A stretch of DNA of 64,000 bases from Rhodothermus marinus DSM 4252 (GTDB lineage Bacteria; Bacteroidota; Rhodothermia; Rhodothermales; Rhodothermaceae). Each line of letters opens with the position of its first letter. Positions within the stretch are counted from its first letter, which is position 1. Below are positions 51,368 through 61,431 of this stretch, piece by piece. The translations under genes were made by a program, and so were the position numbers. The notes beneath the pieces were generated by a model. It saw only the letters and a list, made by a program, of their open reading frames with translations, was not told the DNA's origin and did not search any database. Location of the stretch: positions 1,554,001 through 1,618,000 of the forward strand of contig NC_013501.1 of the NCBI RefSeq assembly GCF_000024845.1. The letters are read 5' to 3'.

Positions 51368-52804
51368 TCAGGCCGACAGCGCCGGGACGGGACAGGCCGG
51401 CCAGTAGACCTCGAAGGTGCTGCCTTTTCCGGGGCCCGGGCTCCAGGCCTGCACCGAGCCGCCGCAGGCTTCCACGATGGCGCGTACGATGGCCAGCCCG
51501 AGCCCGGAGCCGGGCCTGCCTTCGGCCGAACGTCCCCGGTAAAAGCGGTCAAAGAGATGCGCCGCCTCCGCCGGATCGAAACCGATCCCGGTATCCGTAA
51601 CCCGCAGCCGGATCTGACCGTCGAGCCGATGTACTTCCAGGCGCACCCGGCCACCCGGCGGCGTGTACTTGCAGGCGTTGGAAAGCAGATTGTCGAGCAC
51701 TTCGTCCAGGTATTCCGGCACCACGCAGACCCAGGCGTGTGCCGGCAACACCGCCTCGAAACGCAGCCCTGCCTGTTCGAAACGGGCCTGCCAGTCTTTC
51801 AGGCGCGACTGACAGCGCTCGACCAGATCGGTCGGGCGGGCGCGCTCATGGGCGTCGGTGCGTTCGAGACGGGCCAGGTGCAGCAGGCCGCGGACGGTTT
51901 CCGTCATGCGCTCGACGTCGCGCAGGGCCTCTTCGAGCACTTCGCGATAGTAGGCGGCCTGGCGGGGTCGCCGGAGTGCCACCTCCAGCTCACTGCGCAA
52001 CGCCGAAAGCGGCGTCAACAGTTCGTGGGCCGCGTTGTCCGTAAAGCGCCGTTCCCGCTCGAGCGAGGCGGCCAGGCGCGCCAGCAGGTCGTTGAACGTC
52101 TCGGCCAGCTCGGTCAGTTCGTCCTGCACCCCGCCCGGGACGGGCAGGCGCGCCGCCAGGTTGTCGGCGCCCATCTGCCGGGCGGTCGCCGTCAGCAACG
52201 CCACCGGCTGCAGGGCCCGGCGGGCCAGCCAGTAGCCGCCCAGGGCGGCCAGCAGCACGCTCAGCACGATCCCCAGTCCCAGCACCAGGCCCAGGTGGTG
52301 CAGCTCGCGGTGGAGCGACCACTCGAAGCCTGTCACCTCCAGCCAGCCGAATAGCCGACCTGCCTCATCGAAAAGCGGCGTGTAGCGGGTGCGCGCCGGC
52401 TTGCCTTCCCACGTGTGGCTGTAGACCTGCACATCCAGGACGGGCTGCACGCGCACGGGCAGCGAATCGTGCCGGGCGAAATTGGGACTCTCGTAGACCA
52501 CGCGACCGTCGGGGCGCAGCAGCCGCACATACGTACCGTAAATGCCGTCGGTCTGATAGGCCACGGAGCGCAGCGTATCGAGCGCCACAAACACAGGCAC
52601 GCCGGCCCGCTCCTGCACGAACGGCATGAGCTGGCGCGTCTCGTGGATCAGATGCTGGTCGAAGTCCCGATGCCGGGCCATGTGGAAGCTCACGTAGCTG
52701 AAGGCCGCAAACAGCCCCAGCAGCACCAGCAACGTGGCGGCATACCAGAGCGCCAGCCGTACGGAGATCGACCAGCGGTGCGGAAGGCGACGAAGCCACG
52801 TCAT
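51368..52804 (-). CDS. Sensor histidine kinase (copper-island two-component system)
   Basis: 478 residues. Two transmembrane helices (~14-36 and ~165-188) enclose a ~130-residue periplasmic sensor, then a HAMP segment (~190-240), the H-box DNAAHELLTPLSALRSELE (~252), N-box NLLSNACKYTPPGG (~378), G1 DTGIGF and G2 GSGLGLAIV (~436). The topology matches CusS/CopS-type metal sensors. Its start overlaps the regulator's end (ATGA), so it is the second gene of the unit. Confidence 0.9.
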   Translation of the reverse strand: MTWLRRLPHRWSISVRLALWYAATLLVLLGLFAAFSYVSFHMARHRDFDQHLIHETRQLMPFVQERAGVPVFVALDTLRSVAYQTDGIYGTYVRLLRPDGRVVYESPNFARHDSLPVRVQPVLDVQVYSHTWEGKPARTRYTPLFDEAGRLFGWLEVTGFEWSLHRELHHLGLVLGLGIVLSVLLAALGGYWLARRALQPVALLTATARQMGADNLAARLPVPGGVQDELTELAETFNDLLARLAASLERERRFTDNAAHELLTPLSALRSELEVALRRPRQAAYYREVLEEALRDVERMTETVRGLLHLARLERTDAHERARPTDLVERCQSRLKDWQARFEQAGLRFEAVLPAHAWVCVVPEYLDEVLDNLLSNACKYTPPGGRVRLEVHRLDGQIRLRVTDTGIGFDPAEAAHLFDRFYRGRSAEGRPGSGLGLAIVRAIVEACGGSVQAWSPGPGKGSTFEVYWPACPVPALSA

Positions 52805-53496
52805 GGCGTTTCCGTGGCGGAAGGTTCAAGCCGCAGGGCGTAGCCGACACCCCGGACGGTTTCGATCTGCAACGCCGGAGTCGCCTCGCTGAGTTTCTGG
52901 CGCAATCCGGAAACGGTCACGTCGATCGTGTTGTCGCTCACGTAGAACGGGTCGCCCCAGACCTGCTCGGCAATCCGCGTGCGCGAGAGCACCTCGCCCG
53001 GATGACGCGCCAGAAAGCGCAGCAGATCGTACTCCTTGGGCCGCAGCGGCAAGACGTACTCGCCCACCCGGACCTGGCGGCGCCGCTCGTTGATCTCCAG
53101 CGGTCCCAGGCGGATCACGTCGGTTGCCTGCCAGACAGGCGATCGGCGCAGCAGCGCCCGCAGCCGGGCCAGCAACTCCTCGAAGGCGAAGGGTTTACCC
53201 AGATAATCGTCGGCCCCGGCGTCCAGTCCGGCCACCCGGTGTTCGAGGTCGTCCAGCGCCGTCAGCATCAGGATCGGCATCTGATAGCCGGCTTCCCGCA
53301 GGCGCCGCACCAGCGTCTGACCGTCCATCCGGGGCAACCGCCAGTCCACGATCAGCGCGTCGTAATGGCTGGCCTGCACGCGGGCTTCCGCTTCCACCCC
53401 GTCGGCCACCCGATCCACCTGGTATCCTTCCTCACGAAGCCCCCGGGCCAGCGCCCGCGCCAGCCGCTCATCGTCTTCCACCAGCAGAATCCACAT
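52801..53496 (-). CDS. OmpR/PhoB-type response regulator
   Basis: 231 residues. Receiver domain with acidic pocket (EDDE), phosphoacceptor Asp in LIVDWRLPRMDG (~51) and the Lys of YLGKPFAFEELLARL (~102). The C-terminal winged helix (ELIxLRPKEYDLLRFLARHPGEVLSRTRIAEQVWG-type, ~150-190) binds DNA. It is divergent from copA, and its likely target is the shared box in the intergenic region, so it probably activates both copper operons. This regulatory link is an inference. Confidence 0.92.
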   Translation of the reverse strand: MWILLVEDDERLARALARGLREEGYQVDRVADGVEAEARVQASHYDALIVDWRLPRMDGQTLVRRLREAGYQMPILMLTALDDLEHRVAGLDAGADDYLGKPFAFEELLARLRALLRRSPVWQATDVIRLGPLEINERRRQVRVGEYVLPLRPKEYDLLRFLARHPGEVLSRTRIAEQVWGDPFYVSDNTIDVTVSGLRQKLSEATPALQIETVRGVGYALRLEPSATETP

Positions 53497-53548
53497 GATC
53501 GCCGCGCTTTTTGCTGCATGAAAGACCCGTCCGGGCGTTCAGTTTCTT

Positions 53549-53586
53549 CCTTAAAAGGTTTTAAGCCACGGCCCAGTCAGGTTTTA
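53549..53586 (+). promoter_or_regulatory. Shared copper-operon box, copy 1
   Basis: CCTTAAAAGGTTTTAAGCC (with the perfect inverted repeat CTTAAAA-GG-TTTTAAG), then a run containing CAGTC, ending GTTTTA. The same order, 30 of 36 bases identical apart from a 2-nt gap, recurs at 57815-57850. It ends 57 bp before the copA-type ATG. It is probably the regulator-binding site plus promoter element. Confidence 0.6.
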
Positions 53587-53643
53587 GATCCCCGGAAAAA
53601 AATTGCGGGCGGTTTGCTGAAACACCGATCCACCGAAGCGGAC

Positions 53644-55509
53644 ATGAAGAGCTTCACACGTCGTGATTTTCTGCAGGCCCTGGCGTTGCTGGGCATTTCG
53701 ACGGGGATCGAGGCGCTTCTGCCGGCCTATGCGCGCTCGCGTCCGCGCGTGCCCGCTCCCCGTCGGCCACGCCGAGGCCCGGTAACCTACGACCTGACCA
53801 TTGCCGAAACGCCGATCCGCATCGGCGGCCGCAGGGCAAAGGCCACCACCATCAACGGCACGGTGCCGGGGCCGCTGCTGCGCTTCCGCGAAGGCGACGA
53901 GGTGATCATCCGCGTCACCAACCGCCTGAAAGAAGACACCTCCATCCACTGGCATGGCGTGCTGGTGCCCTTCGACATGGACGGCGTGCCGGGCGTGAGC
54001 TTTCCGGGCATCAAACCCGGTGAAACCTTCACGTACCGGTTCCGGCTGCGCCAGCACGGCACCTACTGGTACCACAGCCACAGCGGGCTGCAGGAACAGA
54101 CGGGCATCTACGGCCCGCTCATCATCGACCCGGCCGAAGAGCCCTATCCCTACGATCGCGAATACGTGATCGTGCTGAGCGACTGGACCTTTGAAAACCC
54201 ATACCGCGTGCTGGCCCGGCTGCGCAAGTACCCCGGCTACTACAACTTTCAGCGGCGCACGCTGGCCAATCTGTTCGAGGAAGCCCGTGAGATGGGCTTC
54301 TGGAAGGCGCTGAAGGATCGGCTGAGCTGGGGCCGCATGCGTATGGGTGCCACGGACATCGTGGACATCACCGGCGCCACCTACACGTACCTGATGAACG
54401 GCCACGCACCCGAAGACAACTGGACGGCCCTGTTCCGGCCGGGCGAGCGCGTGCGGCTGCGGTTCATCAACGCGGCGGCCGGCAGCATCTTCGATGTACG
54501 CATCCCCGGTCTGCCGATGACGGTGATTCAGGCCGACGGTCAGTACGTGCAGGCGGTTACGGTCGATGAGTTTCGCATCGGCATTGCAGAAACGTACGAT
54601 GTAATTGTCGAGCCGAAAGAAGAGCAGGCCTACACGATCTTTGCCGAGTCGATGGATCGCAGTGGCTATGCCCGCGGTACGCTGGCGCCGCGCGAGGGCA
54701 TGGAAGGTCCCATCCCGCCGCTCCGGAAGCGCCCGCTGCGCACGCACGCCGACATGGGCATGGTGCACGAAGGACACGAAGGCCATGCGGGCATGCCTCA
54801 CGAGGCCATGGCCGCGCCCACCGAACACCGGGGGCACCAGATGCCCGCCGACACGACCGGACATCACATGCACGGCGGACATGACCACCATGGCGGACAT
54901 GCCATGATGGCGGGCATGATGGGCGGCGTGGGGCAGCCGCCGGGTATGCCACCGGAAGCGCAGCCTCACGGCGACGACACGCACGGCCCGGGCAACGCGG
55001 CCGTACCGATGATCACGCGCAGCCGCCTGCACGAGCCGGGAGTAGGCCTGGGCGAAGACGGCTGGCGTGTGCTGGTCTATACCGACCTCAAGAGCCTGCA
55101 CCCCCGCGAGGACTTCCGTCCACCCACCCGTGAGATCGAGCTGCACCTGACCGGCAACATGGAGCGCTTCCTCTGGGGCATCGACGGCAAAACCTATTCG
55201 GAAGCGCCCGAGCCGATTCGTCTGCGCTACGGCGAGCGGGTGCGGCTCGTGCTCGTCAACGACACGATGATGGAGCACCCCATGCACCTGCACGGGATGT
55301 GGATGGAACTCGAAAACGGCCATGGCCGGCACATTCCACGCAAACACACGATCCTGGTCAAGCCGGCCGAGCGGCTTTCCGTGCTGATCACGCCGGACGA
55401 ACCCGGTCCGTGGGTGTTCCACTGCCACATCCTCTATCACATGGAGATGGGGATGTTTCGCGTCTTTGAAGTATCCGAACCGGAAACGGCAACCCGAACG
55501 TCATCATGA
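53644..55509 (+). CDS. copA: CopA-type multicopper oxidase (copper resistance)
   Basis: 621 residues from ATG 53644 with a Tat-type signal (TRRDFLQALALLG). Three cupredoxin domains with the copper motifs: SIHWHGVLV (~103), TYWYHSHSG (~141), HPMHLHGMW (~543) and HCHILYHMEMGM (~592), which give the type 1, 2 and 3 sites. An insertion at ~375-460 is unusually rich in His and Met (HEGHEGHAGMPHEAM; HHMHGGHDHHGGHAMM). It oxidises Cu(I) in the periplasm and may store copper in the insert. Its stop overlaps the copB start (ATGA). Confidence 0.93.
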   Translation: MKSFTRRDFLQALALLGISTGIEALLPAYARSRPRVPAPRRPRRGPVTYDLTIAETPIRIGGRRAKATTINGTVPGPLLRFREGDEVIIRVTNRLKEDTSIHWHGVLVPFDMDGVPGVSFPGIKPGETFTYRFRLRQHGTYWYHSHSGLQEQTGIYGPLIIDPAEEPYPYDREYVIVLSDWTFENPYRVLARLRKYPGYYNFQRRTLANLFEEAREMGFWKALKDRLSWGRMRMGATDIVDITGATYTYLMNGHAPEDNWTALFRPGERVRLRFINAAAGSIFDVRIPGLPMTVIQADGQYVQAVTVDEFRIGIAETYDVIVEPKEEQAYTIFAESMDRSGYARGTLAPREGMEGPIPPLRKRPLRTHADMGMVHEGHEGHAGMPHEAMAAPTEHRGHQMPADTTGHHMHGGHDHHGGHAMMAGMMGGVGQPPGMPPEAQPHGDDTHGPGNAAVPMITRSRLHEPGVGLGEDGWRVLVYTDLKSLHPREDFRPPTREIELHLTGNMERFLWGIDGKTYSEAPEPIRLRYGERVRLVLVNDTMMEHPMHLHGMWMELENGHGRHIPRKHTILVKPAERLSVLITPDEPGPWVFHCHILYHMEMGMFRVFEVSEPETATRTSS

Positions 55510-56249
55510 AGCGCTGGATAAAACTACTGCTGTTGATCGCCGTTGCGGTCGGGCTGCCTGCTCGGCAGGTCCGGGCCCAGGCCAAGCCGCTTATCCGCTT
55601 TATGAATGAACACACGTTGGCTTTTGTACTTTTCGACCTGCTGGAAACAACTCCCGCCTTAGATGGGCGCCCGCTGGAATGGGACATGGATGCCTGGGTC
55701 GGGAAGATGTATAACCGGCTCTGGATCCGCAGCGAAGGCGAACTGCTGACCGCGCAGCGTGGCGGCGAGGCGGAGTTCCAGGCACTCTACAGCCGGGTGG
55801 TGGCACCTTTCTGGGATCTCCAGTTCGGGGCACGACTCGACGTGGCCTATGGTGACGAAACGCGTACCCGTGCCCATCTGGCCCTGGGCCTGGAGGGCCT
55901 GGCCCCCTACTGGTTCGAACTGGAACCGACCCTGTTTGTCAGCCAGGATGGAGCCGTCTCCGCTTCACTGGTGGCCTCCTACGATCTGTTCGTCACGCAG
56001 CGGTTGATTCTACAGCCTCGACTGGAAGCACTCGCTGCCGTGCAGGAAGTGCCCGACTGGGGCGTCGGACGCGGGTTGAACCGCGTGGACTTCGGCCTGC
56101 GGCTGCGCTTCGAGCTGGTGCGCGAGTTTGCTCCGTACATCGGGTTCAACTGGAGTCGCCTCTACGGAGGCGCGGCCGACCTGGCCCGTGCCGAAGGCGA
56201 AGCGACGCGCACGTCCGGAATCGTGGCCGGTGTGCGGCTCTGGTATTGA
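55506..56249 (+). CDS. copB: CopB-type outer-membrane copper resistance protein
   Basis: 247 residues with a signal peptide ending QVRAQ (~25). The rest is a beta-barrel-like sequence with alternating hydrophobic residues, matching CopB: FVLFDLLETTP, WDMDAWVGKMYNRLWIRSEGE (~60-80), ending in an aromatic residue (VRLWY), as barrels require. It is the outer-membrane partner of CopA. The usual N-terminal Met/His repeats of CopB are missing. It is translationally coupled to copA. Confidence 0.88.
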   Translation: MKRWIKLLLLIAVAVGLPARQVRAQAKPLIRFMNEHTLAFVLFDLLETTPALDGRPLEWDMDAWVGKMYNRLWIRSEGELLTAQRGGEAEFQALYSRVVAPFWDLQFGARLDVAYGDETRTRAHLALGLEGLAPYWFELEPTLFVSQDGAVSASLVASYDLFVTQRLILQPRLEALAAVQEVPDWGVGRGLNRVDFGLRLRFELVREFAPYIGFNWSRLYGGAADLARAEGEATRTSGIVAGVRLWY

Positions 56250-56328
56250 AAAAATGCCGAGATCGGGAGCATCTGCCCGACTTTGGCCGTAATGCCTGCA
56301 ACCCTGCTTCACTTTACCCCCGAATCCC

Positions 56329-56811
56329 ATGCGCATCACCCGCAAAACCTACGTGCTGGGCTTTCTGCTGGGCGCGGCCCTGGCTGCCGTTGGTCTGGCC
56401 CTCTACAGCAGCCAGCAGCAGGCTTCGGCCCAGCCCACCCTGACCGTCTTCAAAAGCCCCACCTGCGGCTGCTGCGGCAAGTGGGTGGAGCACATGAAAG
56501 CGGCCGGCTTTAACGTGCGCGTCGAAGACGTGCAGGACCTGAGCGCGATCAAAGCCCGCTTCCACGTGCCCGGCACGCTGCATTCCTGCCACACGGCCAT
56601 CGTCGAAGGCTACGTGATCGAAGGCCATGTGCCGGCGGCCGACGTGTGGCGCCTGCTCCGGGAAAAGCCGGACGTAACCGGCCTGGCGGTACCGGGCATG
56701 CCGATCGGTTCGCCCGGCATGGAGCAGGGCTTCCGCGTGGATCCCTACGACGTGCTGGCGTTTACGACGGACGGTCAGACACGGGTCTTCGCCCGCTACG
56801 GACAGGAATAG
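56329..56811 (+). CDS. DUF411 metal-binding protein
   Basis: 160 residues with a signal anchor. The motif SPTCGCCGKWVEHM (~43-56) and GTLHSCHTAIV (~86) are DUF411 hallmarks. Members often sit in copper or silver resistance loci and may bind Cu(I) through the CxCC and His/Cys pair. It lies 79 bp after copB and 3 bp before tlpA. Confidence 0.88.
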   Translation: MRITRKTYVLGFLLGAALAAVGLALYSSQQQASAQPTLTVFKSPTCGCCGKWVEHMKAAGFNVRVEDVQDLSAIKARFHVPGTLHSCHTAIVEGYVIEGHVPAADVWRLLREKPDVTGLAVPGMPIGSPGMEQGFRVDPYDVLAFTTDGQTRVFARYGQE

Positions 56812-56814
56812 GCG

Positions 56815-57477
56815 ATGCAGGAGAGCCTGCCGCTCAGTCCATCGCTGTTGTACGCGCTGGCGGGATTGCTGGTGGTCGGTGGCCTGGCGCTGCTCTGGCT
56901 GGCGCCACGCCTCAGCCCGCGTCGCCGCCTGGAAGGCGCGGCGGCCTGGACCGGCGCGCTGTTCGGCGGCGTGGTGATGCTTTCGGGGCTGGCCCTGGGC
57001 GCGCTGGCCTACCTGCGCCAGCAGCAGCCCGAGATCGTTCAACCGCCGGGGGTGGTCGGGCGCCCCGCACCGGAGCTGGCCTTTCGTCTGGTCGACACCG
57101 ACGAGCCGCGCACGCTGGCCGACTACCGGGGGAAGGTGATCCTGCTGAACCTCTGGGCCACCTGGTGCGGCCCCTGCCTGGCCGAAATCCCCGAACTCAA
57201 TCGCTTCCAGCTGGCCTATCGGGACCGGGGCGTCGTGGTAATCATGATCTCAGACGAACCCCGCCAGACCATTCTGGAATTCACGAAAGAACGTCCCTTA
57301 GAAGCCGTCAGCGGCTATCTGCCTGAAGACGCCCACTGGCCCTGGCCCTACAACCGGGTCGAACAGGCCCGTCCCACCACGTTCGTGATCGACCGCGACG
57401 GCATCATCCGCGAGACCTGGCCTGGCGCCGCCGACTTCGCCCAGTTCGAAGCGGCGGTGTTGCCCTATCTGGAATAA
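56815..57477 (+). CDS. TlpA-like thiol-disulfide oxidoreductase
   Basis: 220 residues. Two N-terminal transmembrane helices (~12-32 and ~45-68) anchor a periplasmic thioredoxin domain with the active site WATWCGPCLAEIPE (~113). TlpA proteins keep cysteines reduced for cytochrome and copper-centre assembly. Here the position after DUF411 suggests it maintains the copper-binding cysteines. It ends the first copper operon; repeat copy C follows. Confidence 0.88.
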   Translation: MQESLPLSPSLLYALAGLLVVGGLALLWLAPRLSPRRRLEGAAAWTGALFGGVVMLSGLALGALAYLRQQQPEIVQPPGVVGRPAPELAFRLVDTDEPRTLADYRGKVILLNLWATWCGPCLAEIPELNRFQLAYRDRGVVVIMISDEPRQTILEFTKERPLEAVSGYLPEDAHWPWPYNRVEQARPTTFVIDRDGIIRETWPGAADFAQFEAAVLPYLE

Positions 57478-57545
57478 GCAGTTTTCCGCCTCTTTGCAGT
57501 ACGCTTCGGGAAACCCCACTGCATGCCTGGCACAGAGCCTGTTTG

Positions 57546-57687
57546 TAGAACTTATCCGGAGAACAAGGGGAGATCCGGTAAGCCGGCGCTTCGCGCTGCG
57601 TGTCGGAAGCACCTGTTTGTAGTAAGCCTCGAAGGCGCCAGCCGAAGTGGCGTTCCCCGTTCGGCACTTCGCTCCGTGCCGGACTAC
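57546..57687 (-). repeat. Dispersed ~150-bp repeat, copy C
   Basis: Starts TAGAACTTATCCGGAG and ends GCCGGACTAC on the + strand, the same orientation as copy A. It contains CGGCAC...GTGCCG and AGCGC...GCGCT hairpin arms. Confidence 0.75.
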
Positions 57688-57700
57688 GAACAGGGACTGG

Positions 57701-57741
57701 TTTTTAGTAAGCCGTGAAGGCGTTTTAGCGAAGTGACCTCC
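57701..57741 (-). repeat. Partial second unit of the dispersed repeat
   Basis: TTTTTAGTAAGCCGTGAAGG followed by AGCGAAGTGACCTCCC repeats the middle of copy C (TTTGTAGTAAGCCTCGAAGG ... CCGAAGTGGCGTTCCC) with a few changes. Confidence 0.5.
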
Positions 57742-57814
57742 CTTTCTGCCTGCATACGCGTTCCTTAAGCCCTCATTGCAGAGCACCCGTCAACCGTAAC
57801 CGCTTCGTTGCGTG

Positions 57815-57850
57815 CCTTAAAGGCTTTTCAGCCGCCGCTCAGTCGTTTTA
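57815..57850 (+). promoter_or_regulatory. Shared copper-operon box, copy 2
   Basis: CCTTAAAGGCTTTTCAGCC, then a run with CAGTC and GTTTTA, matching 53549-53586. It ends 64 bp before the Met-rich ATG. The inverted repeat is less perfect than in copy 1. Confidence 0.6.
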
Positions 57851-57914
57851 AATAAAGGGTTCGGTAGCTTGAGAGCGTATTCTGAACCTGCAACCAACCC
57901 GAGGAGGTAACGCC

Positions 57915-58670
57915 ATGTATACGGTGATAAAGCGACTGGTGCTGGGCCTGACCTTGCTGAGCATGCCGGCCCTGGCCCAGCAACACGGCCATCAAATGAT
58001 GCGCCCGGACACCGCCCGCGGAATGATGCAGGGCGGCATGATGGGCCAGATGGGCATGATGCCCATGATGCAGATGATGCCCCGCATGATGGGCATGATG
58101 CAACAGGGCATGATGATGCAGAACCCGTTGCACCGTGCCACCATGATGGCCTTTGTGCTTCCGGCGATGGCCGATACGCTGGGCCTTTCCGAGCAGCAGC
58201 AGCGCCAGCTTGGTGAACTCAAACAACGCATGCTGCAGGCGCATCGCGCCCGCCAGCAGGAGATCCGGCAGCACCAGCAGGCCCTGCAGGCGCTCTTTCA
58301 GAACGAGCAGCAGCCCGATCCGGCCGCCCTGCGCGAGCACCTGCAGGCAATCGCCCGGCTGGAGGTAGATGACCGGCTGGCCCCCTACGAAACCTTCCGC
58401 CAGATGCTCCAGGTGCTCAACGACGCGCAGCGCGAGCGCCTGCGCGGCATGCAGCCCCATCAGCTGATGGCCTACATGATGCGGCTGCCCATGATGGAGA
58501 TGATGCCGATGATGCACATGATGCACGGCCGCGAAGGCATGATGCGCATGATGCAGGGCGGCATGATGCCCATGATGCAGATGATGCAGGGTGGCATGCC
58601 CATGCACCGACAGATGGAAGGACAACACGGGCACGATCAGGACGGCCATCACCACCATCGTCCCCGTTGA
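57915..58670 (+). CDS. Exported Met-rich copper-binding-like protein
   Basis: 251 residues with a signal peptide ending ALAQ (~22) and a strong GGAGGT 9 nt upstream of the ATG. Two Met-rich blocks (~28-76: repeats such as GMMGQMGMMPMMQMM; ~194-235) and a His-rich C terminus (HGHDQDGHHHH) flank a central helical domain (~85-180: LGLSEQQQRQLGELKQRM, then QMLQVLNDAQRERLRGMQ) that resembles CpxP/Spy-like LTXXQ proteins. Met clusters are classical Cu(I)/Ag(I) ligands. It is probably an abundant periplasmic copper buffer or chaperone. It opens the second copper operon. Confidence 0.7.
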   Translation: MYTVIKRLVLGLTLLSMPALAQQHGHQMMRPDTARGMMQGGMMGQMGMMPMMQMMPRMMGMMQQGMMMQNPLHRATMMAFVLPAMADTLGLSEQQQRQLGELKQRMLQAHRARQQEIRQHQQALQALFQNEQQPDPAALREHLQAIARLEVDDRLAPYETFRQMLQVLNDAQRERLRGMQPHQLMAYMMRLPMMEMMPMMHMMHGREGMMRMMQGGMMPMMQMMQGGMPMHRQMEGQHGHDQDGHHHHRPR

Positions 58671-58686
58671 TTAAACGGAGAAGACC

Positions 58687-58917
58687 ATGTACGGACCACA
58701 CATGTTCTGGGGCATGCACTGGGGGTGGTGGATCTTCTGGATCGTGGTGATCATCGCGCTGGTCTGGCTGCTCAGCCAGCGCCGGACCGGCGCACCACCA
58801 TCGCCCCGGAAAGAATCGCCGCTGGAGCTGCTTCAGCGCCGCTACGCGGCGGGAGAAATCTCGACCGAAGAGTACGAGGAGCGTCGGGCCCGCCTGGAAC
58901 GCGACCGGTTGGAATGA
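58687..58917 (+). CDS. Small SHOCT-domain membrane protein
   Basis: 76 residues: an N-terminal Met/Trp/His-rich anchor (MFWGMHWGWWIFWIVVIIALVWLL, ~7-30 as a helix) and a C-terminal SHOCT domain (LLQRRYAAGEISTEEYEERRARL, ~48-70). SHOCT tails are thought to aid oligomerisation. Its stop overlaps the next start (ATGA at 58914). Confidence 0.8.
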   Translation: MYGPHMFWGMHWGWWIFWIVVIIALVWLLSQRRTGAPPSPRKESPLELLQRRYAAGEISTEEYEERRARLERDRLE

Positions 58918-59591
58918 GCTCGTTCACTCAAAACCGGGTATCCGTCGAGCCGGAGGCCACGGCGTTTGCGCGGCGGGCCTACGACCGCTTGGCCGCCTGC
59001 TACGATCTGCTGGAGCTGCCGATGGAATGGCTGGCCTTCCGGCGCTGGCGGCGTCGCCTCTGGAAGGGCGTCCGGGGGCCGCGCGTGCTGGAAATCGGGG
59101 TGGGCACCGGCAAGAACATCCCGTACTACCCGCCAGAGGTCACGGTGACGGCCATCGACCTCTCCCCCCGCATGCTCGAGCGGGCACGTCGCCGGGCCGC
59201 CCGCTTTCCGGACCGGAGCGTCGAGCTGCTGGAAATGGACGCGCAGGCGCTGACCTTCCCGGACGACACGTTCGACGACGTCGCCGCTACGTTCGTCTTC
59301 TGCTCCGTTCCCGACCCGGTGCGAGGACTCCGCGAGGCGCTGCGCGTCACCCGGCCGGGCGGCCGGCTCCACCTGCTCGAACACATGCGCTTGCGCTCCG
59401 AACGTATCAGCCGGTGGATGGATCGGCTCGATCCCCTGATCTATCGCCTGACGGGCGTGCATATCGCGCGTCGCACTACGGAAAATGTACGGGAGGCCGG
59501 CTGGGTGCTGGAACAGGAAGTGGATCTGGCACCCGGCGGCCTCGTTCGTCATCTGGTAGCCCGTAAACCAACCAACCAGCAGGAGCCATGA
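58914..59591 (+). CDS. Class I SAM-dependent methyltransferase
   Basis: 225 residues from ATG 58914. Motif I is VLEIGVGTGKNIPYYP (~60), followed by VTAIDLSPRMLERAR (~79) and motif PDDTFDDVAATFVFCSVPDP (~115); HLLEHMR (~158) and the N-terminal YDRLAACYD mark the UbiE/phosphatidylethanolamine-methyltransferase type. It could modify a lipid or quinone; why it sits in a copper operon is unknown. It overlaps both neighbours by 4 bp. Confidence 0.85.
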   Translation: MSSFTQNRVSVEPEATAFARRAYDRLAACYDLLELPMEWLAFRRWRRRLWKGVRGPRVLEIGVGTGKNIPYYPPEVTVTAIDLSPRMLERARRRAARFPDRSVELLEMDAQALTFPDDTFDDVAATFVFCSVPDPVRGLREALRVTRPGGRLHLLEHMRLRSERISRWMDRLDPLIYRLTGVHIARRTTENVREAGWVLEQEVDLAPGGLVRHLVARKPTNQQEP

Positions 59592-59991
59592 GCGAAACGA
59601 AAACGGCCTACTACTTCGCCCGCACGCTTCCGGTCAGCCTCGAAGAGGCCGAAGCCCGCGTGCGCGAACTGTTGCAGCAGGAAGGGTTCGGCGTGCTGAC
59701 CGAAATCGACGTGCAGGCCACGCTGAAAAAGAAGCTGAACGTCGACGTGCGGCCCTACAAGATCCTGGGTGCCTGCAATCCGCACTTTGCCCACCAGGCC
59801 CTGCAGGCCGAGCCGCACATCGGCACGATGCTGCCCTGCAACGTGATCGTGCGCCAGACTGAAGATGGTCAGACCGAAGTGGCTGCCATCGATCCGGTGG
59901 CCTCCATGCAGGCCGTCGACAATCCGGCGCTGCGCCCGATCGCCGAGCAGGTGCGCGAACGCCTGCAGCGCATCATTGAACGACTCTGACA
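59588..59991 (+). CDS. DUF302 protein
   Basis: 133 residues of DUF302: YYFARTLPVSLEEAEARVRELLQQEGFGVLTEIDVQATLKKKL-like N terminus and YKILGACNPHFAHQAL (~57) with ACNP, the family hallmark. DUF302 proteins often accompany metal or sulfur genes; the function is unknown. It overlaps the methyltransferase (ATGA) and is followed after 3-5 bp by the oxidase. Confidence 0.88.
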
Positions 59992-59994
59992 ACC

Positions 59995-61431
59995 ATGCCC
60001 GACCGTCGTTCATTCCTGCGCACGCTGCTCGGTACGACGGCTGCCCTGGCGGTGCCCGGTCTATGGACGGCCGGGTGCCGCCGGGAGCCGGCCGACGCCG
60101 CCACCATCGCGCCCTCGCTACGCCGAGATACGCCGACCGGTCCCACCCGCACCGTTCGACTTCGAGCGGAGGAGATCGAAGTCGAGGTCGCACCGGGGCG
60201 CGTCTACCGCACCTGGGGCTACAACGGCGCCTTCCCCGGGCCGGAGCTTCGGGTGCGCGAGGGCGAACAGCTGCAGGTCGTGGTCGAGAACCACCTGCCC
60301 GAAGGGACTACCATCCACTGGCACGGCGTGCCGGTCCCCAATGCCATGGACGGGGTGCCCGGTCTGACGCAGGACCCCATCGCGCCGGGCCAGACGTTCA
60401 CCTATACGTTCGTGGCCGCTCCCTCCGGTAGCTATCTCTATCACAGCCACGTGGGCCTGCAGCTCGACCGCGGTCTACTCGGCGCTTTGATTATCGAAGA
60501 AACGACTCCCCATGTCTCCTACGACCGGGAGTACACGCTGGTGCTGGACGACTTCCTACCGGGTGAACCCCGGCCGCTCACTGCTGCGACGCCCGGTATG
60601 CGGGGCAGGGGCATGATGGGACGCGGGATGATGGGCGGCATGATGGGTGTGCAGGTGCCCCCGTACGCCGGTTCACTCATCAACGGCCGCCTGCCCGAAG
60701 CGGCTCCGGTCTTTGAAGTGCGGCGTGGCGAGCGGGTGCGCCTCCGCCTGCTGAACCCCTCCGGGGCCAGCACCTTTCGCTTTGCCATCGACGGCCATGC
60801 GATGCTCGTCACCCATGCCGACGGCCGCCCGGTCGAACCCGTCCGCGTCGACAACCTGCTCATCGGCATGGGCGAACGCTACGACGTAATCATCGAAGCC
60901 GACAACCCCGGCCGCTGGGCCATTGTGGCCGTTCCGGTCGAGGGCACGCACCCGCCGGCCCGGGCCGTGCTCCACTACCGGGAAAGCCGGGCGCGCGGCC
61001 TGCCCTCCGGCCTGCCCGAAACACTCCACGGCCGTCCGCTCGACTACAGCGATCTGAAATGCCTCGAAATGCCACCGGCACAGCGGCCGGATCGCTCCTT
61101 TGATCTGCTGCTTTCAGGCGGCATGATGATGGACCCGCGCTGGACGATCAACGGCCAGGCCTATCCGGACGCCGAGCCGCTGGAAATCGCCCAGGGCGAG
61201 CGCGTACGCTTCCGCATGGTCAACCATAGCATGATGCTGCACCCGATGCACCTGCACGGCCACTTCTTCCGCGTGGGCGATGCCCTGAAAGATACCGTGC
61301 TGGTGCCGCCGCATATGGGACGTGTCGTGTTCGACTTTGTGGCCGACAACCCCGGACGCTGGTTCTTCCACTGCCACAACCTCTACCACCTCGAAAGCGG
61401 CATGGCCCGCGAAGTCCGCTACCGCGCCTGA
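59995..61431 (+). CDS. Second multicopper oxidase (laccase/CueO-like)
   Basis: 478 residues with a Tat-like signal (DRRSFLRTLLGTTAALAVPG). Copper motifs: TIHWHGVPVP (~104), SYLYHSHVG (~147), HPMHLHGHFF (~417) and HCHNLYHLESGM (~461). A short Met-rich loop (MRGRGMMGRGMMGGMMG, ~201-217) lies where CueO has its Met-rich substrate gate. It is shorter than CopA and lacks its long His/Met insertion, so the two oxidases are distinct types. It closes the second copper operon and ends 1 bp before a convergent dioxygenase gene. Confidence 0.93.
   Translation: MPDRRSFLRTLLGTTAALAVPGLWTAGCRREPADAATIAPSLRRDTPTGPTRTVRLRAEEIEVEVAPGRVYRTWGYNGAFPGPELRVREGEQLQVVVENHLPEGTTIHWHGVPVPNAMDGVPGLTQDPIAPGQTFTYTFVAAPSGSYLYHSHVGLQLDRGLLGALIIEETTPHVSYDREYTLVLDDFLPGEPRPLTAATPGMRGRGMMGRGMMGGMMGVQVPPYAGSLINGRLPEAAPVFEVRRGERVRLRLLNPSGASTFRFAIDGHAMLVTHADGRPVEPVRVDNLLIGMGERYDVIIEADNPGRWAIVAVPVEGTHPPARAVLHYRESRARGLPSGLPETLHGRPLDYSDLKCLEMPPAQRPDRSFDLLLSGGMMMDPRWTINGQAYPDAEPLEIAQGERVRFRMVNHSMMLHPMHLHGHFFRVGDALKDTVLVPPHMGRVVFDFVADNPGRWFFHCHNLYHLESGMAREVRYRA

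Follow-up and report, generated by a model that had tools for sequence, protein, structure and literature searches.

The stretch of the Rhodothermus marinus DSM 4252 genome analysed here (NC_013501.1, positions 1,554,001 to 1,618,000; 64 kb, hereafter the window) carries two copper operons, op1 and op2, together with the genes of a CusRS/CopRS-like two-component system. The gene for an OmpR/PhoB-family response regulator is divergent from op1, as an earlier, sequence-only reading of this DNA had reported, and heavy-metal families are the best-scoring NCBIfam models for both the regulator and its sensor histidine kinase. The first gene of op1 encodes a PcoA/CopA-type multicopper oxidase and that of op2 a Met/His-rich exported protein, and both operons and their order are kept in five congeners. 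Upstream of each operon we find a ladder of five-base half-sites in an 11-bp register, followed after 10 nt by a -10-like element. Its recurrence beside orthologues of the regulator and before copper genes makes it very probable that the adjacent copper two-component regulator binds this ladder.

The sequence-only reading had described a single shared box of about 37 bp at these two places, 57 and 64 bp before the first start codons, with the perfect palindrome CTTAAAA-GG-TTTTAAG in copy 1. The coordinates and distances are correct, and a hand alignment of the copies gives about 31 of 38 identical columns with one 2-nt gap. The alignment score of the two intergenic regions, 56, was reached in none of 3,000 shuffles, and the strongest unrelated match elsewhere in the window scored 42 against the region of copy 1. 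What had been taken for one box is instead a ladder with the consensus CTKAA-N6-TTMAG-N6-YYMAG-N6-TTMAG and, after 10 nt, A-NN-TT. When the upstream regions of six Rhodothermus genomes (that of the window and the five congeners) are aligned, the conserved unit is the five-base half-site rather than the entire box: at op1, 95% of half-site positions are invariant, compared with 28% of spacer positions and 21-29% of the flanks. In relatives the change from CTTAA to CTGAA parallels that from TTAAG to TTCAG, which marks the first half-site as inverted with respect to the others. The palindrome, present in copy 1 and not in copy 2, is this inverted half-site pair with A/T-rich filler, and a palindrome-only reading was rejected since op2 and most relatives keep the inverted plus direct half-sites without a 7-bp palindrome. 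The register, half-sites 3 and 4, the downstream promoter element and the further genomic copies described below had no place in the earlier account. Under fixed-register scoring of both strands of the window, 17 of 20 is reached only at the two copies, with 14 the next best score. The strict pattern TTMAGYCRNNGNYCAGTC was abandoned as too bound to spacer letters, being exact only at these two sites among 64 matches with at most two mismatches.

The ladder recurs beside orthologues of the regulator in many genera, and it also stands before copper genes. Of the 244 genomes examined in the class, 68 gave close relatives of the regulator; pair counts drew on 64 non-redundant regions divergent from its orthologues, and ladder scoring on 63. 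Of the 64 regions, 29 contain TTMAG pairs with an 11-bp spacing, where 0.05 would be expected. CTKAA is followed by TTMAG at 11 bp in 22 regions, at 22 bp in 10 and at 33 bp in 9, against expectations of 0.10-0.12 (0.12 for the 11-bp spacing). Ladder scores of 17-20 of 20 are found in 18 of the 63 scored regions (the best of 1,890 shuffles was 16), and nine contain all 20 half-site letters. Across 109 genomes of the order, box and regulator co-occur (23/3/24/59 genomes with both, box only, regulator only and neither; p = 9e-8, and p = 0.0014 without the training genomes, related genomes not being independent in either test). The full four-half-site pattern is nearly confined to the order, with one exact match outside it in the phylum sample.

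A genome search for more boxes, as the sequence-only reading had proposed, showed that the element is not limited to two operons. The profile used for this purpose, R1, relies on sequence only and was built from 13 sites of other genera, none of them from Rhodothermus. In a filtered search of the 3,386,737 bases of this genome (two contigs), it retrieved op2, a site in the cusCBA promoter and a site before a DUF2231 gene. As read from the sequences, several other Rhodothermales have the homologue of that gene in divergent orientation to the regulator itself. Homologues of the op2 Met/His-rich protein likewise adjoin the regulator in other families. When the filters were switched off, the two best matches in 19 kb were op2, at 17.2 bits, and op1, at 11.7 bits. 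In other genera, new sites that were not in training precede genes for a PcoA-type oxidase, copper-translocating ATPases, a DUF4198 protein and others, and the ladder there also precedes genes for a Met-rich/LTXXQ protein and OEP. Two candidates were rejected: CTTAAAGCCTTTTCAGTATGCTCCAAG (L163, G000:C1:182798-182824), where the dyad fits and three half-sites are in register, is probably a chance match, with 7.1 bits, a poor ladder and neighbours of unknown function rather than copper genes, and CTTAAATTTTCTTCAG (L165) lies beside a terminator-like inverted repeat.

The ten best sites share the A-NN-TT element 10 nt after the last half-site (A in nine of ten, the two Ts in nine and ten of ten). 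It would fit a degenerate version of the -7 box of Bacteroidota, which has the sequence TAnnTTTG and spans -12 to -5 (PMC9723704). If this element acts as the -10, transcripts would start near 53611 for op1 and 57877 for op2, and half-sites 1-4 would lie at about -61, -50, -39 and -28. Half-site 3 would then fall at about -35, because the repeats end 10 nt before the element.

Table 1. Ladders, putative promoter elements and genes of the two copper operons, with further predicted sites. Positions are those of the window, or of the whole genome where marked G000.
Feature	Position	Strand	Remarks
Sensor histidine kinase, CusS/CopS-like	51368..52804	-	HAMP, HisKA, HATPase; best NCBIfam TIGR01386, 228.1 bits
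OmpR/PhoB-family response regulator, CusR/CopR-like	52801..53496	-	Response_reg and Trans_reg_C; best NCBIfam TIGR01387 (heavy-metal regulator), 209.8 bits
op1 half-site 1, inverted, CTTAA	53550..53554	-	register class-wide
op1 half-site 2, TTAAG	53561..53565	+	16-bp dyad with half-site 1; invariant, six genomes
op1 half-site 3, CCCAG	53572..53576	+	11 bp on; 4/5 bases invariant, six genomes; spacers vary
op1 half-site 4, TTTAG	53583..53587	+	11 bp on; invariant, six genomes
op1 putative -10-like element, AAAAATTG	53598..53605	+	10 nt downstream of half-site 4; class-wide conservation of A and TT at equal offset
PcoA/CopA-type multicopper oxidase	53644..55509	+	TIGR01480, 817.9 bits, above cut-off
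CopB outer-membrane copper protein	55506..56249	+	PF05275, 1.6e-76
DUF411 protein	56329..56811	+	PF04214
TlpA/ResA-like thioredoxin-fold protein	56815..57477	+	PF00578
op2 half-site 1, inverted, CTTAA	57816..57820	-	invariant, six genomes
op2 half-site 2, TTCAG	57827..57831	+	invariant, six genomes
op2 half-site 3, CTCAG	57838..57842	+	CTAAG in three congeners; CTMAG in 6/6
op2 half-site 4, TAAAT, degenerate	57849..57853	+	3/5 bases fit; not conserved in G003, G005, G006
op2 putative -10-like element, GTAGCTTG (TAnnTT)	57864..57871	+	offset identical to that of op1
Met/His-rich exported protein, op2 first gene	57915..58670	+	open reading frame, without Pfam family
SHOCT-domain small membrane protein	58687..58917	+	PF09851
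Methyltransferase-like protein (label by eye)	58914..59591	+	open reading frame; syntenic in congeners
DUF302 protein	59588..59989	+	PF03625
Second multicopper oxidase	59995..61431	+	Cu-oxidase domains
Site before DUF2231 gene	G000:C1:1785329		R1 match
Site between CopA-type ATPase gene and cusCBA operon (outer-membrane factor (OMF), CusB, CusA)	G000:C1:2856120		R1 match

From the observed architecture, its conservation and its association with both the regulator and copper genes, we infer with considerable confidence that both boxes serve as operator-promoters in a single copper regulon under a CusRS/CopRS-like system, with the phosphorylated regulator as a class II activator. In the mechanism we propose, copper outside the cell or in the periplasm would be sensed by the kinase, which would phosphorylate the regulator. 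Regulator monomers would then line up along one face of the DNA on half-sites spaced by 11 bp, occupying the inverted pair and one or two direct TTMAG-like repeats. With the promoter-proximal repeats ending 10 nt before the -10-like element, the regulator could substitute for a -35 element by contacting RNA polymerase, and the predicted targets of activation are the PcoA/CopB operon, the Met-rich/second-oxidase operon, the cusCBA operon and the DUF2231 gene.

That the operator belongs to the adjacent OmpR-type regulator, as the sequence-only reading had supposed, is very likely. Binding by another OmpR/PhoB-family regulator, or by two of them with cross-regulation, we regard as unlikely. The genome encodes a paralogue of the regulator (G000:C1:577627-578292, 50% identical), whose own divergent promoter has a similar three-repeat ladder, CTCAG-N6-TTAAG-N6-CTAAG, before a CusA/CzcA-type resistance-nodulation-division (RND) operon, and in Pseudomonas CopR, CusR and CzcR cross-regulate at one palindrome (PMC11195947). 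However, paralogue-type ladders (L065, L152, L156) have no CTKAA half-site, whereas the full ladder with its inverted half-site tracks the orthologues of the adjacent regulator and lies divergent from them. The half-site code may still be common to more than one regulator. A repressor that binds half-sites 3-4, blocks polymerase and is released by copper would suit a ladder that appears to overlap the expected -35 region. It is very improbable, given the fixed 10-nt distance to the -10-like element, a position like that of class II activators, the reported type II activity of AgrR, and the fact that the characterised CusR/CopR/PcoR-type relatives are activators. The -10-like element belongs to the conserved block, as it would if the similarity reflected an unregulated promoter or leader motif; this explanation, like mere chance, is hardly credible beside a score found at two places only in the window, invariant half-sites among variable spacers, and class-wide recurrence near the regulator and copper genes.

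Several observations nevertheless weigh against activation by the adjacent regulator at both operons. Half-site 4 of op2 is degenerate, and so is the -10 element. The regulator and the kinase score below the curated cut-offs of their families (279.2 for TIGR01387 and 292.55 for TIGR01386). Against the outgroup profile op1 has only its 11.7 bits, and it was missed by the filtered genome search; the R1 score alone would not stand out genome-wide, and the case for op1 is its genus footprint and its place (53550-53587) between the divergent regulator and PcoA-type oxidase genes. To these points are added the paralogue's similar ladder and the 24 genomes of the order with a regulator match and no box match. 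Finally, several ladders made of TTCAG half-sites alone in genome G171 (L212-L215; C1:2100466, 2102130, 2104647, 2240625) have no visible copper genes downstream; another regulator may use the same ladder architecture there.

Beyond activation by the adjacent regulator, we tentatively consider a Rhodothermales-specific design, quite possible though far from assured, in which an inverted cop-box-like dyad is joined, in the same helical phase, to a tandem pair of PmrA/Pho-like half-sites and to a -10 at fixed distance. Four monomers might bind, and the dyad might differ in function from the tandem part, with anchoring or autoregulation on one side and activation on the other as an example. If this is true, the number and quality of half-sites would set the copper threshold of each operon.

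The surroundings of the ladders hold other conserved or repeated sequences. TTCAGTT at 53538-53544, 12 nt before the op1 ladder and invariant in six genomes, may be an extra half-site or may belong to the promoter of the regulator gene. All six Rhodothermus genomes also keep a second palindrome 3 nt upstream of the op2 ladder, CGTAACCGCTTCGTTGCG at 57795-57812, which reads CGTAAC-N6-GTTACG in the congeners; op1 lacks it. Another regulator may bind there, and CGTAAC-N6-GTTRCG showed no genome-wide enrichment. The long region farther upstream of op2 (57500-57760) contains repeat-like segments (TTTGTAGTAAGCC...GAAGGCG...GAAGTG, repeated), similar in congener G002 and different in the others, that look like a dispersed intergenic repeat. 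Within op2, the DUF302 and second oxidase genes are separated by 5 nt here (59989-59995) and by about 1 kb in congeners (L051:9052-10029), which suggests that a gene may have been lost or gained between them. G002 also has a second, diverged copper locus (L057, G002:C1:556000-574000) with RND efflux, CopB, Met-rich and SHOCT genes and two oxidases 74% and 61% identical to those of the window. There, 11-bp TTMAG pairs stand at three promoters, no regulator gene was seen in the 18 kb covered, and a CRISPR-like or other repeat array adjoins the locus after about 13,000.

The literature search returned no relevant paper on copper regulation in Rhodothermus and no copper operator for Rhodothermota. 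The closest published dyad is the AgrR box, ATKACANNNNTGTMAT, a 16-bp inverted repeat bound by a type II activator and accompanied at some sites by an extra in-phase direct repeat (PMC7380067). Palindromes have also been described for E. coli CusR (AAAATGACAANNTTGTCATTTT) and in P. paraeruginosa (PMC11195947), and that of E. coli also fits the ATKACANNNNTGTMAT consensus. These cop/CusR/AgrR boxes resemble the ladder in their 16-bp length, in positions 2-4 and 13-15 (TKA...TMA, with the K/M degeneracy), which agree with CTKAA-N6-TTMAG, in the divergent regulator-oxidase arrangement, in the in-phase direct repeat of some AgrR sites and in the type II activator position predicted for the ladder. 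They differ at positions 1, 5, 12 and 16, where the ladder replaces the outer A...T by C...G and the inner C...G by A...T, and the ladder has, as a rule, two further half-sites in strict 11-bp register. The sequence-only reading had called the operator new and unlike the CusR/CopR box. This stands for the bases, the dyad lacking the cop-box consensus and ATKACANNNNTGTMAT having no exact match in this genome, and does not stand for the dyad geometry, which is the same. Nor is the operator unrelated in kind to other published boxes, since its tandem part also resembles those of PmrA and PhoB.

In the PmrA (BasR) box, CTTAAG-N5-NTTAAT (PMC3973317), a half-site almost identical to TTAAG is repeated head to tail at a distance of 11 bp, and the solved structures closest to the regulator of the window include that of BasR. 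Unlike the ladder, it has no inverted half-site and controls polymyxin resistance genes rather than copper genes, and the Rhodothermus ladder has CCAG/TCAG half-site variants. The Pho box lies just upstream of the -10 region, as the ladder does of its putative one. It consists of two 11-bp direct repeats (PMC2648988) bound, as we presume for the ladder, by an OmpR/PhoB-family regulator; its half-site is CTGTCAT, its signal phosphate instead of copper, and it too has no inverted half-site. The CopR box of Corynebacterium glutamicum, TGAAGATTT-N2-TGAAGATTT (PMC3140484), serves a copper response regulator, as the ladder probably does, and shares with it direct repeats 11 bp apart and an intergenic position, with the gene for the regulator on one side and a divergent copper operon on the other. 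Its half-site is unrelated, however, and it occurs once in its genome, far upstream of one start. The ladder has the head-to-tail half-sites in a register of about 10-11 bp that mark tandem operators of the OmpR/PhoB family. By consensus it is not a cop box, and it appears to be built like a cop box and a Pho/PmrA box together; the sequence variant is new, while the kind of operator is already known. The ladder offers a testable genome-wide copper regulon for Rhodothermota, and its sequence connects the dyad cop box with the tandem PmrA/Pho box, two types of operator in the OmpR/PhoB family.

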